DNA of 56,476 nucleotides, from positions 1 through 56,476 of the forward strand of contig SKSF01000082.1 of NCBI GenBank assembly GCA_007118095.1, read 5' to 3'. The stretch comes from Dehalococcoidia bacterium. GTDB lineage: Bacteria; Chloroflexota; Dehalococcoidia; Tepidiformales; Tepidiformaceae. The position numbers were made by a program, and so were the translations under genes. The notes under the pieces are model-generated. The model was not told the origin of the DNA, ran no database searches, and saw only the letters and a program-made list of their open reading frames with translations. Below, piece by piece: positions 25,480 through 29,097 of the stretch. Positions within the stretch are counted from its first letter, which is position 1, and each line of letters opens with the position of its first letter.

Positions 25480-26331
25480 CTAGAAGAGGAGCTGCGACAG
25501 GCGGCGCTGGTAGTCGCGCGCAAGCTCGGTCTGGGGCCCGAGGATGTCGAAGATTGCGAGGACCGCCTTGCGTGCGGCTTCGTCGGCAAAGCGGCGGTCG
25601 AGGCGGATTGATTCGAGGAGTTCGTCCAGGGCTTCCTCGTACTTCTCCTGCGACGCGAGGAGGACGCCGTGCCGGTACCGTGCGCGGGGGTCCTTGGGGT
25701 CGGCGGCGGCTTCGCCGGGGAGATCTTCACCAGCATGCTTCTCCGCGAAGTTCGCAAGGAAGATGCGGTGCTTGAGCGCGCGGGCGCGGCGGTCGGCCGG
25801 GGCGCGGTCGAGCAGGTCATCTGCCTCTTCGGTTTCGCCGCGGTCGATGAGGAGCGAAGCGAGTCCAACGATGGCGTCCGGGTTACCAGGGACACGGCGC
25901 AGGAGGTCGCGGTAGGCGGCTTCGGCGTCTTCGGATGAAAGACCCTTCCGGGCGATGTCGGCGGCTTCGTGTGCGGCGCGTTCGGCTTCGGTGGGGAGGA
26001 GGGACTGGAAGAAGGTCCGGACTTCGGTTTCTTGTTTGGCGCCGAGGAACTCGTTGGCAACCTTGCCGTTCTTGAAGCCCTTCACGGCGGGGATGCTCTG
26101 GATGCCGTATTGCGTCGCTGTGCGGGGATTCTCATCGGTGTTGAGCTTCACGACTTCGACCTGCCCGGCGAACGACCCGGCGACCTTTTCGAGCGTGGGA
26201 CCGAGGACGCGGCAGGGGCCGCACCAGGGCGCCCAGAAGTCAACGACGACCGGAATTTCCTGTGAGCGTTCGATGACGTCCTTTTGGAACGAGGCGTCGG
26301 TGACCTCTTTGACGGCGGAACCAGTGGTCAT
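25480..26331 (-). CDS. Thioredoxin-TPR fusion protein, CnoX/YbbN-like
   Basis: 283 aa. The thioredoxin domain (about 1-110) keeps the active site WCGPC (Cys37, Cys40), VVVDFWAPWC and IPAVKGFKNG. The C-terminal about 150 residues form TPR-like helical hairpins (DAEAAYRDLLRRVPGN, LLASQEKYEEALDELLESI). In E. coli CnoX, which hands substrates to GroEL/DnaK, the catalytic cysteines are altered; here CGPC is intact, so redox activity is likely. A TACGAT -10-like hexamer on the minus strand (26368-26373) suggests its own promoter between rnpB and this gene. Confidence 0.9.
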   Translation of the reverse strand: MTTGSAVKEVTDASFQKDVIERSQEIPVVVDFWAPWCGPCRVLGPTLEKVAGSFAGQVEVVKLNTDENPRTATQYGIQSIPAVKGFKNGKVANEFLGAKQETEVRTFFQSLLPTEAERAAHEAADIARKGLSSEDAEAAYRDLLRRVPGNPDAIVGLASLLIDRGETEEADDLLDRAPADRRARALKHRIFLANFAEKHAGEDLPGEAAADPKDPRARYRHGVLLASQEKYEEALDELLESIRLDRRFADEAARKAVLAIFDILGPQTELARDYQRRLSQLLF

Positions 26332-26444
26332 GGCTTCATGACTCCCATTGTTGCTTTGTGTGACCTTATCGTAGCGAGGGGGACATACGTAGCGGAAGAT
26401 ACGCCACGCCGGCGATGAGGCGGTTCTGCGAGGTGTGCCACATG

Positions 26445-26800
26445 GGCAGTCCAGCGGGCCGGTAAGCCGGATTCTGTCCCTCGCAAGCGAGGGGGCGGCC
26501 ATCTCTCTGGGCGCGGCATCGCTGCCGCGCTCTAGCGGCCAACCCGGGAGTACGAACGAGCCGGGCACTCTCCTCCCCTATTCGGCCTTGCTCCGGGTGG
26601 GGTTTGCCCGGCCGCCGTGTTGCCACGACGCCGGTGCGCTCTTACCGCACCATTTCACCCTTACCCGCGCAAAGCGGGCGGTATGTTTCTGTGGCACTTT
26701 CCGTCGGCTTACGCCGCCCAGGTGTTACCTGGCACCCTGCCCGGTGGAGTCCGGACTTTCCTCTCCCTTGCGGGAGCGGCCGCCTGGCCCGCTGGACACC
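26445..26800 (-). ncRNA. rnpB: RNase P RNA (class A)
   Basis: Catalytic RNA of RNase P that removes 5' leaders of pre-tRNAs. On the minus strand the conserved elements are in order: GAGGAAAGTCCGGACTCC near the 5' end, ACAGAAACATACC, GGTAAGGGTGAAA, GGTAAGAGCGCACC and ACAGAATCCGGCTTACCG near the 3' end. Helix P1 pairs GTCCAGCGGGCC (about 26797-26786) with GGCCCGCTGGAC (26460-26449). The ends are estimated from P1. It sits 43 bases after the degenerate recombinase gene. Confidence 0.97.
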
Positions 26801-26803
26801 TCT

Positions 26804-26809
26804 ATTGTA
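26804..26809 (-). promoter_or_regulatory. -10 element of the rnpB promoter
   Basis: TACAAT on the minus strand (5/6 to consensus), 7 bases before the predicted 5' end of RNase P RNA at about 26797. No good -35 is present at 16-18 bases. The position between the recombinase stop and rnpB argues for a separate rnpB promoter. Confidence 0.55.
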
Positions 26810-26843
26810 CCGAAGGGACGGCAAGGGGGGCGGCGGGTTGTTT

Positions 26844-28259
26844 CTAACTGCGAAGGAAGACGCGGACGCCTTCGGTCCCTGCTTCGATGCGGTCGACGAG
26901 GTCACGGAGGGCAACCTGGAGCTCGGCGAACTCCAGGCGGTCCCACTCGCGGGTAACGCGGGTGCGCAGCTCTTCGAGGTGCTGCCGGTATTCGGCGGCG
27001 GACCGCTGGGCAGCGAGGCGTTCGCGAGCCTGCCGCAGCTCCTCCTGGAGCTCACGCTGTTCGCGGGCGGGTTCGGCACCGAGTGTGCGCATGCGCTCGA
27101 GGCTGATATGGCCATGGGCGGCGTCGGCGACGATTTCTTCGACCTGGCGGCGGAGGCGGCGGAGCTGACCTTCGATGCGTTCGACCTGTGCGGAGGCGTC
27201 GTTCACGAAGGTATCGACATTGCCGGTGTGCTGGACGCGGCGCGGGGCTTCGCCGGATTCGGCAAGCTGGTCGCGGACCCGCTGTTCAAGTTCGGCAGCG
27301 CGCTGGGTGTTGTACTGGCAGGCGTTCTGGTTGGTACGCGACTCGCACTGGTAGTAGCGGTAGGTCGCGTTGCGGGACTCGCCGGCGCGCGTCGTCCAGT
27401 TCTGGCGGCGGCTGACACCGATCATGCGGTTCCCGCACTGTGCGCAGAAGACAAGGCCGCTCAAGAGGAAGGGCTGGACGGAGCGACGGGTCATGGATGG
27501 CTGGCGTGCCTGGAGGCGTTCCTGGACACGGCGGAAATCGGCGGCACTGACCAGGGCGGGATGGCTATCCGGGACTTTGACGCCGAAGCGCGAATACGTA
27601 CCGAGATAGGTGCGGTTCCGGAGGATGTCGCGGATGGAGACCATGCTCCAGCGGCCGCCGCGCCGTGTCTTGATGCCTTCTTCGTTCAGGCGACCAGCGA
27701 TGAGGCGAATGCCGAGGCCTTCGTTGAGGTAGAGGTCGAAGATGTAGCGGACGACGGCGGCTTCTTCGGGCACGATTTCGAGCCGGCGGCCGGCGCCGAT
27801 GCGATAGCCATAGGGAGGACGACCAAGGGCTTCGCCGCGCACGGCCTTGCGCCGCATGGCGGTGCGGACGCGCTCGGAGACGGGGGTGCCTTCGCCCTGG
27901 CTGGCCCAGCGCTCAACGATGGCGCGGGCGGCTTCTTCGTCATGTTCCGCGGAGTAGACCGGCACGCCGGTTTCTTCGATGGCGAGGAGCCTCATGGCGG
28001 CGTGGCCGAGGTCGGACCCGAGCACGCCGAGACAATCGACAACGACGACGGTGAATCCGTGGTCGCCGCGGCGGAGGAAGCCGAGCATCTGCTGGAGGCC
28101 GGATTCCTCCGGGTCCTGGCCTTCGGTGTCGAGGAACGTGCCGGCGATCTCGTAACCATTGCGCGAGCAGAAGTCGACGAACGCGCGGTTTTGCTCCCCG
28201 ATAGGGCGCAAGTCGCCGTCGCGGCGTGCACCTTCGACGAAGTATCCGACCGCCTTCAC
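26844..28259 (-). CDS. Degenerate (catalytically dead) large serine recombinase-like protein
   Basis: 471 aa with the large-serine-recombinase layout: resolvase-like N-terminal domain (about 1-120), recombinase DNA-binding domain (about 135-250, GRPPYGYRIG and RNRTYLGTY), zinc ribbon (Cys272, 275, 305, 314) and a long C-terminal coiled coil (355-440). Aligned without gaps to gamma-delta resolvase, the Y-A-R-V-S active-site segment reads Y6-F-V8-E9-G10, so the catalytic Ser is Gly. The D-R-L-G-R motif reads D75-C-L-G-V79, so both Arg are lost. The frame is intact, a GTG start lies 4 bases after the DUF164 stop, and codon use is host-like. It is probably a domesticated DNA- or RNA-binding protein. 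Confidence 0.88.
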   Translation of the reverse strand: MKAVGYFVEGARRDGDLRPIGEQNRAFVDFCSRNGYEIAGTFLDTEGQDPEESGLQQMLGFLRRGDHGFTVVVVDCLGVLGSDLGHAAMRLLAIEETGVPVYSAEHDEEAARAIVERWASQGEGTPVSERVRTAMRRKAVRGEALGRPPYGYRIGAGRRLEIVPEEAAVVRYIFDLYLNEGLGIRLIAGRLNEEGIKTRRGGRWSMVSIRDILRNRTYLGTYSRFGVKVPDSHPALVSAADFRRVQERLQARQPSMTRRSVQPFLLSGLVFCAQCGNRMIGVSRRQNWTTRAGESRNATYRYYQCESRTNQNACQYNTQRAAELEQRVRDQLAESGEAPRRVQHTGNVDTFVNDASAQVERIEGQLRRLRRQVEEIVADAAHGHISLERMRTLGAEPAREQRELQEELRQARERLAAQRSAAEYRQHLEELRTRVTREWDRLEFAELQVALRDLVDRIEAGTEGVRVFLRS

Positions 28260-28263
28260 GAGC

Positions 28264-28965
28264 CTACCCCGGGGCCAGGATGCGTTCGCACATAGGACAT
28301 TCGACCACGCGGTCGCGTGACAGCACCTGCTTGCGCACGGCATCGGGGAGGGCAACGCGGCAGCCACCGCAGGCCTGGCCCTGGAGGCTGGCAACAGCAT
28401 TCCCCCCCTTGCGGTTCCGGAGGTCCTGGTAGCGGCGAAGCGTCGCGCTGTCGATTGCGCCCGCCTGCTCGCCACGGCGCTGCTCAAGGCTGGTGAGTTG
28501 TGACTGGAGCGAGTCGAGGCGCGAGCGGAGTTCTTCCTCTTCCTTTTGCCGCGTTGCCTGGACGGACTCAAGGTTGCGCCGGGCGGCGTCGCGCCGGGCA
28601 TTGAGCTTTTCAATGCGCTCAAAGACCTCTAGGAGCTCGTCTTCGAGGCCGCTGCGCTTCTTCTTCAGCGTCTCCACTTCGTGCTCGAGGCTCATGAGCT
28701 CTTTTGTGCTGGTGACGGAGCCACTGAAGAGTCGCTTCTCCTCGGGGTCGATGCGTGCTGTGAGGTCCGCTATCTCGCCTTCGAGCCGCCGCTGGGTCTT
28801 TTCCTGGTTCGCGATGCGGGACTCTTCGTGTTCGAGCTGGCGGCGGGCGTGATCGACGGCTTCGCTGCTTTCGAGCTGGGCGGTGACGGCGCTGATGTTC
28901 GACTGCAGCGTTGCGAGCTGGTCGTCGAGATCCTGGAGTTTGACGAGTTCGGTAACGGCGGACAT
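28264..28965 (-). CDS. DUF164-type zinc-ribbon coiled-coil protein
   Basis: 233 aa. Residues about 5-170 form a long coiled coil, and the C-terminus carries a zinc ribbon C-x2-C...C-x2-C (ACGGCRVALPD then VVECPMCERIL). This is the CdsZ/CT398 (DUF164) family; suggested roles include nucleic-acid or sigma-factor binding, but the function in most bacteria is unproven. It is the first gene of a minus-strand unit with the degenerate recombinase, which follows after 4 bases. Confidence 0.88.
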   Translation of the reverse strand: MSAVTELVKLQDLDDQLATLQSNISAVTAQLESSEAVDHARRQLEHEESRIANQEKTQRRLEGEIADLTARIDPEEKRLFSGSVTSTKELMSLEHEVETLKKKRSGLEDELLEVFERIEKLNARRDAARRNLESVQATRQKEEEELRSRLDSLQSQLTSLEQRRGEQAGAIDSATLRRYQDLRNRKGGNAVASLQGQACGGCRVALPDAVRKQVLSRDRVVECPMCERILAPG

Positions 28966-29097
28966 AGAGAAGGCTAACCCTAGCGCTAAGCGTAGGGGGC
29001 GGCGGGGACCGCGGCAAAGGGCCGCGGGGTGAATTTGCGCAATCGTTACGTTTGCCGGTGGTTATGGTGGTATGACGCCGGGCGGGGAGGTGAGGGC

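Follow-up and report, generated by a model that had tools for sequence, protein, structure and literature searches.

A catalytically dead large serine recombinase retained as a probable host DNA-binding protein in Chloroflexota

Our analysis points to the domestication of a large serine recombinase (LSR) that has lost its active site and now probably serves its bacterial host as a dedicated sequence-specific DNA-binding protein, likely in transcriptional control. We put the probability of this reading at roughly 0.7. The gene, rec, lies in a 56,476-nucleotide stretch of a Dehalococcoidia bacterium (contig SKSF01000082.1), which we refer to as the window. An earlier sequence-only reading had proposed that a phage integrase-like protein was taken over by the host for a DNA- or RNA-binding role. 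Domestication is strongly supported by orthologues in near and far relatives, the lost catalytic set, low dN/dS in all domains, and conserved synteny with the upstream gene cdsZ.

RESULTS

A full-length recombinase with a destroyed active site

The rec open reading frame begins with GTG and contains no internal stops and, as had been read earlier, no frameshifts; it is present in one copy in its 3.2-Mb genome. Its parts are as follows.

26844 to 28259, reverse strand: rec, catalytically dead LSR of 471 amino acids (open reading frame, Pfam, model, structure matches)
27906 to 28259, reverse strand: N domain, residues 1 to 118, resolvase fold with catalytic residues lost (alignment, model, structure matches)
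28230 to 28238, reverse strand: codons 8 to 10, Val at Arg8 and Gly at Ser10 in gamma-delta numbering (alignment)
28014 to 28028, reverse strand: codons 78 to 82, G-V-L-G-S, equivalent to D-R-L-G-R of active enzymes (alignment)
27840 to 27878, reverse strand: helix E-like helix, model residues 128 to 140 (model, alignment)
27504 to 27770, reverse strand: Recombinase (DNA-binding) domain PF07508, residues 164 to 252 (Pfam, E 6.6e-22)
27264 to 27467, reverse strand: zinc beta-ribbon PF13408 (Zn_ribbon_recom), residues 265 to 332 (Pfam, E 3.6e-12)
26949 to 27218, reverse strand: coiled coil, model helices 348 to 381 and 387 to 437 (model)

The matches to PF07508 and PF13408 both exceed their curated cut-offs, and together with the model helices they bear out the view that the recombinase domain, zinc ribbon, and coiled coil are intact. 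Furthermore, the four cysteines of the zinc ribbon (Cys272, 275, 305, and 314) are invariant or almost invariant in the family. The Pfam search returned no match in rec to the Resolvase domain (PF00239), even at an E value of 1. Nevertheless, an AlphaFold2 model (single chain, 90 family sequences; mean pLDDT 85.5, pTM 0.51) matches entire LSRs end to end, including the SPbeta integrase (9y66; E 6.8e-19, Z 19.1), with further whole-LSR matches to Bxb1, phiC31, and A118. The N domain by itself matches serine recombinase catalytic domains, namely those of gamma-delta (2rsl; Z 8.3 over 111 residues) and TP901-1 (3bvp; Z 10.3). Judging from the model and these matches, the N domain adopts a resolvase fold whose sequence has diverged beyond the reach of PF00239.

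Residues 8 and 10 of rec, which are Arg and Ser in active enzymes, are Val and Gly, in agreement with the earlier reading. The loss of the D-R-L-G-R motif also stands, since both arginines are absent whichever register is used, while its placement at residues 75 to 79 (D-C-L-G-V) was wrong. Two orthologues that still read D-R-L-G (L065 and L072) fix the register without gaps at residues 78 to 82, with Val79 and Ser82 where the arginines would be. We aligned 99 orthologues with 20 active LSRs, almost all of the latter from Chloroflexota genomes. Among five key residues (R8, S10, R45, R68, and R71), every active LSR has all five; the orthologues retain none (n = 49), one (n = 30), two (n = 18), or three (n = 2). 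The loss is conserved in that none of the 99 orthologues combines Ser10 with Arg68. Three members (L053, L063, and L067) still have Arg8 and Ser10 and have lost Arg68 and Arg71, and such cases suggest that the active site decayed stepwise once function was lost. An alternative enzymatic role for the N domain was considered and rejected: the positions with at least 90% conservation (M1, A3, G5, Y6, C31, and G98) make no obvious catalytic set. At position 31 (window 28167 to 28169, reverse strand), 94 of 99 family members share the Cys of rec, and 17 of 20 active LSRs have Ala. In short, rec is a full-length LSR with a destroyed active site.

Distribution and inheritance

Rather than being missing from close relatives, rec has an orthologue in 35 of the 37 genomes from its family. 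The two exceptions (G003 and G015) are incomplete assemblies, 78% and 85% complete, and G015 yielded cdsZ only as a fragment. In nearly all genomes of the family the orthologues are 60 to 68% identical to rec, and cdsZ lies directly upstream in each. Conservation of rec exceeds that of cdsZ, for which identity is 35 to 44% in most of these genomes and 60% within the genus. We scanned 393 genomes of the class, apparently Tepidiformales/Dehalococcoidia of the Chloroflexota (NCBI places Tepidiformaceae in class Tepidiformia). Of their 99 family-level groups, about 40 contained strong matches, a hand count based on a sample of orthologues and not an exhaustive collection. In a scan of the whole phylum, LSRs whose active sites are intact are among the best matches beyond the class (E about 1e-60). 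When a tree is built from the recombinase and zinc domains, the rec family forms a group apart from active LSRs (support 0.935) and is monophyletic as sampled, with outgroups limited to LSRs that match the rec family profile.

Patristic distances of rec and cdsZ are strongly correlated (Mantel r 0.83, versus a maximum of 0.25 among 999 permutations), and the two trees have 29 well-supported splits in common; of the 50 supported splits in the rec tree, 8 disagree with that of cdsZ. Together, the distance correlation and the shared splits indicate that rec has been inherited mainly vertically. Mobile relatives were sought and rejected: viral contigs contained no relative of rec, and phages and plasmids gave only distant matches (22 to 30% identity), of which the annotated ones are ordinary integrases or recombinases. 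Carriage on mobile elements with patchy horizontal spread is not the pattern of a gene that has cdsZ upstream in 92 of 99 loci and whose tree follows that of cdsZ.

Inverted constraint and a fixed recognition surface

Mean dN/dS was 0.00 to 0.18 per domain within four genera, dead N domain included, and 0.07 to 0.21 for rec against its nearest congener. These ratios indicate purifying selection on every domain. The distribution of that constraint differs from the one seen in active enzymes. Among rec family pairs at 45 to 60% mean identity, the recombinase domain was 62% identical, the zinc ribbon 58%, and the N domain 34%; the corresponding values for active LSR pairs in the same range were 46%, 51%, and 62%. 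By this comparison, constraint is inverted, with the DNA-binding domains, above all the recombinase domain, most conserved in the rec family and the ex-catalytic domain much less so. This pattern fits the DNA-binding role that had been proposed. Charge has also shifted. The N domain has become acidic (family mean net charge −5.3 versus +1.4 in active LSRs; −10 in the window's protein), and residues 119 to 149, the helix E region, are basic (family net +4.9 versus −0.3).

Arg185, Arg199, Arg210, Arg224, and His233 are fixed at 92 to 98% in the rec family and variable in active LSRs. Such a fixed recognition surface suggests a fixed DNA target. Retention of the coiled coil, along with the basic helix E region and the presence of both the recombinase domain and the zinc ribbon, would also suit a structural or nucleoid protein that bridges DNA with little sequence specificity. 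We consider this improbable, however, as conservation in the family is lowest in the coiled coil, while the fixed base-reading residues suggest a specific site.

The operon neighborhood

The genes and signals flanking rec in the window are the following.

28264 to 28965, reverse strand: cdsZ (DUF164; coiled-coil hairpin and C4 zinc ribbon), 4 nt upstream of rec (profile matches)
26447 to 26795, reverse strand: rnpB, class A RNase P RNA (RF00010, 298 bits), 48 nt downstream of rec
26804 to 26809, reverse strand: TACAAT, −10-like box 8 nt before the rnpB 5' end (read from sequence)

The earlier spacing of 4 nt from the end of cdsZ at 28264 is correct, and rec does lie beside rnpB, with a gap of 48 nt by the RF00010 match instead of the 43 estimated. 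Conserved synteny holds on the cdsZ side: the gene occurs on the same strand within 400 nt upstream in 92 of 99 rec loci. Counted from where the match to the cdsZ profile ends, the median gap is about 10 nt. On the rnpB side synteny is often broken in the window's own family. Of 95 covered loci overall, 56 have rnpB on the same strand no more than 1.5 kb downstream. For covered loci of the same family the figure is only 12 of 32, and in the other 20 rec is intact and constrained. One rearranged locus (L010, in G014) has rnpB near rec on the opposite strand.

Across relatives the operon order is cdsZ-rec-(rnhA)-rnpB. Distances from rec to rnpB fall into two groups, one at no more than about 125 nt and one at 440 nt or above, and in the latter an RNase HI-like gene often occupies the gap. 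Since two rec-less relatives that we inspected show the order cdsZ-rnhA-rnpB, parsimony favors an insertion of rec between cdsZ and rnhA, followed by loss of rnhA in lineages such as the window's. There is no rnhA between rec and rnpB in the window (26796 to 26843), and no match to PF13456 at E 1e-5 in its genome. A weak RNase H-like match occurs in the same genome (G000:C37, E 2e-4). Downstream of rnpB, window 25480 to 26568 (reverse strand) encodes what appears by eye from the translation to be a thioredoxin-like protein with a TPR-type tail (CnoX-like).

We did not detect cdsZ (PF24481) in the rec-keeping L102, L111, G221, G172, G191, G078, G037, G042, and G114; rec without detectable cdsZ occurs in lineages of three other families. 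Given these lineages and the 20 of 32 same-family loci that lack rnpB, neither gene is an obligatory neighbor of rec, nor is CdsZ an obligate partner. Two replacement scenarios were rejected. A substitute for RNase HI does not agree with the many rec genomes that have rnhA between rec and rnpB. A substitute for RnpA does not agree with the presence of RnpA elsewhere (G000:C30:9698-10012), and the RnpA domain PF00825 is not among the Pfam matches of rec.

The location of rec could be explained if the protein bound RNase P RNA or another RNA. The 56 of 95 loci with rnpB downstream would fit, as would L102 and L111, where rec is kept 47 to 49 nt from rnpB with no detectable cdsZ. We regard such a role as unlikely. 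The link to rnpB is missing in 20 of 32 same-family loci, RnpA is encoded elsewhere in the genome, and the conserved residues fall in the DNA-reading domains. Moreover, because rec-less relatives have the same cdsZ-rnhA-rnpB order, the position beside rnpB appears to be inherited. The TACAAT box suggests that rnpB has its own promoter. The earlier suggestion of a tie to RNase P thus fares poorly, with rnpB near in only 12 of 32 same-family loci, RnpA located elsewhere, rnhA often intervening, and an apparent −10 box belonging to rnpB itself.

A candidate operator upstream of cdsZ

Comparison of promoters within the family brought out two features.

28973 to 28984, reverse strand: GCTAGGGTTAGC, GCTA-N4-TAGC, conserved element between the −10-like box and cdsZ, candidate operator (promoter comparison)
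28989 to 28994, reverse strand: TACGCT, putative −10-like box of the cdsZ-rec promoter (promoter comparison)

Boxes of the form TANNCT, which resemble TACGCT, occur in many relatives. The element CGCTAGGGTTAGCC is conserved in 19 same-family representatives, scoring 219 versus 178 for the best of 100 shuffled sets, and in these CGCTA[G/C]GGTTAGCC sits just upstream of cdsZ, usually right after a −10-like TANNCT. The sequence GCTANGGTTAGC was found once in each of 8 genomes, at the cdsZ promoter in 7. Because such a 12-mer is expected by chance about once per genome, the evidence lies in positional conservation and not in uniqueness. Its dyad symmetry falls short of perfect, with 6.0 of 12 pairs on average versus 3.0 at random, and LSR sites are normally longer. 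Furthermore, the element was seen only in the window's family whereas the DNA-reading residues are conserved class-wide, so it may be something other than the site of rec. Other families carry different conserved promoter motifs, and for this reason we treat the link between the element and rec as hypothetical. In nine loci (L058, L059, L060, L062, L063, L064, L066, L093, and L094) a different block, TATAATCC, mostly followed by TTGTC or GTCCA, is conserved upstream of cdsZ; these loci come from several other families.

Other candidates for a target were rejected. Dyad counting near cdsZ gave lineage-specific motifs (GCTA..GTTA here, CTATAATCC in other families) instead of a class-wide one, and near rnpB it gave only G+C-rich motifs that probably come from the included rnpB 5' end. 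A cis-element inside the rec coding sequence was likewise dismissed, as synonymous conservation (0.830, versus a 95% level of 0.826) was no better than permutation.

A dead integrase might also guard attachment sites, sitting on them and blocking related elements that carry LSRs. Much like a dominant negative, rec has kept the att-reading domains and lost catalysis, and intact LSRs are abundant in related genomes. Yet those LSRs coexist with rec in relatives, no att-like site was found, and near-universal vertical retention with a single fixed surface is easier to reconcile with a fixed target than with an arms race; we therefore give this explanation little credence. Finally, although catalytic residues are lost, a decaying or recently inserted element whose stability is only apparent is hardly credible given low dN/dS in every domain, no frameshifts, a tree that agrees with cdsZ, and about 40 family groups that carry rec; the orthologue data exclude chance or decay.

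DISCUSSION

We propose that an ancestor shared by many lineages of the class took up an LSR gene between cdsZ and rnhA/rnpB. Its product would then have ceased to be catalytic, with selection in the host preserving the recombinase domain, zinc ribbon, coiled coil, and N domain. In its present form, the recombinase domain and zinc ribbon would read a fixed DNA site and cut no strand, and the N domain and coiled coil may provide oligomerization surfaces for a dimer or higher-order assembly. Such a protein would act through occupancy of its site, as a repressor of its own operon and possibly at other places as well. Autoregulation is proposed because the conserved element overlaps the operon promoter at its presumed transcription start, and rec is perhaps autoregulatory in this way. 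We infer DNA binding in vivo, oligomerization, autoregulation, and the partnership with CdsZ alike.

Previous studies have shown that CdsZ/FlgZ (DUF164) homologues bind the sigma factors RpoN or RpoD (PMC6426960, PMC3372290) and that one relative occupies hundreds of promoters in Waddlia (PMC6426960). In addition, rnpB and rnhA are found near DUF164 genes in other phyla (PMC3372290). Since relatives of CdsZ bind sigma factors, a joint role of rec and CdsZ at promoters is plausible by analogy. A more ambitious reading, in which the class-wide dead-LSR family is a host transcription factor with one fixed DNA site and a partner of sigma-associated CdsZ, is tentative, and we would not yet favor it.

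The fold and domain order of rec are those of the large serine integrases (A118, phiC31, Bxb1, and SPbeta). Unlike them, the rec family is without the active-site Ser and Arg, is not carried on an element, occurs in single copy, is inherited vertically, and has inverted constraint. Among NCBIfam families, rec most resembles XisF and CcrA/B/C, over the part that runs from helix E through the coiled coil, with scores far under the cut-offs (75.7 versus 900 for CcrC; 71.8 versus 375 for XisF). These developmental and cassette LSRs, unlike rec, are active recombinases. The operon partner CdsZ/FlgZ is a separate protein without recombinase domains. Hosts are known to reuse serine recombinases as active enzymes for inversion and excision, and nuclease-dead relatives of TnpB illustrate how a mobile-element enzyme can be reused as a regulator without catalysis. 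The latter are unrelated to rec and are RNA-guided, whereas rec would read DNA through protein domains. A regulatory family of dead LSRs was not found described in the open-access papers searched.

Taken together, the sequence evidence points to a new kind of host DNA-binding protein. Genes for dead LSRs are easily mistaken for integrases when prophages and islands are mapped. About 100 diverged pairs of recombinase domain and zinc ribbon, seemingly with one target, could be a resource for learning how LSRs read DNA. More generally, if our interpretation is true, LSR domains can serve for very long periods as a scaffold that binds DNA on its own.
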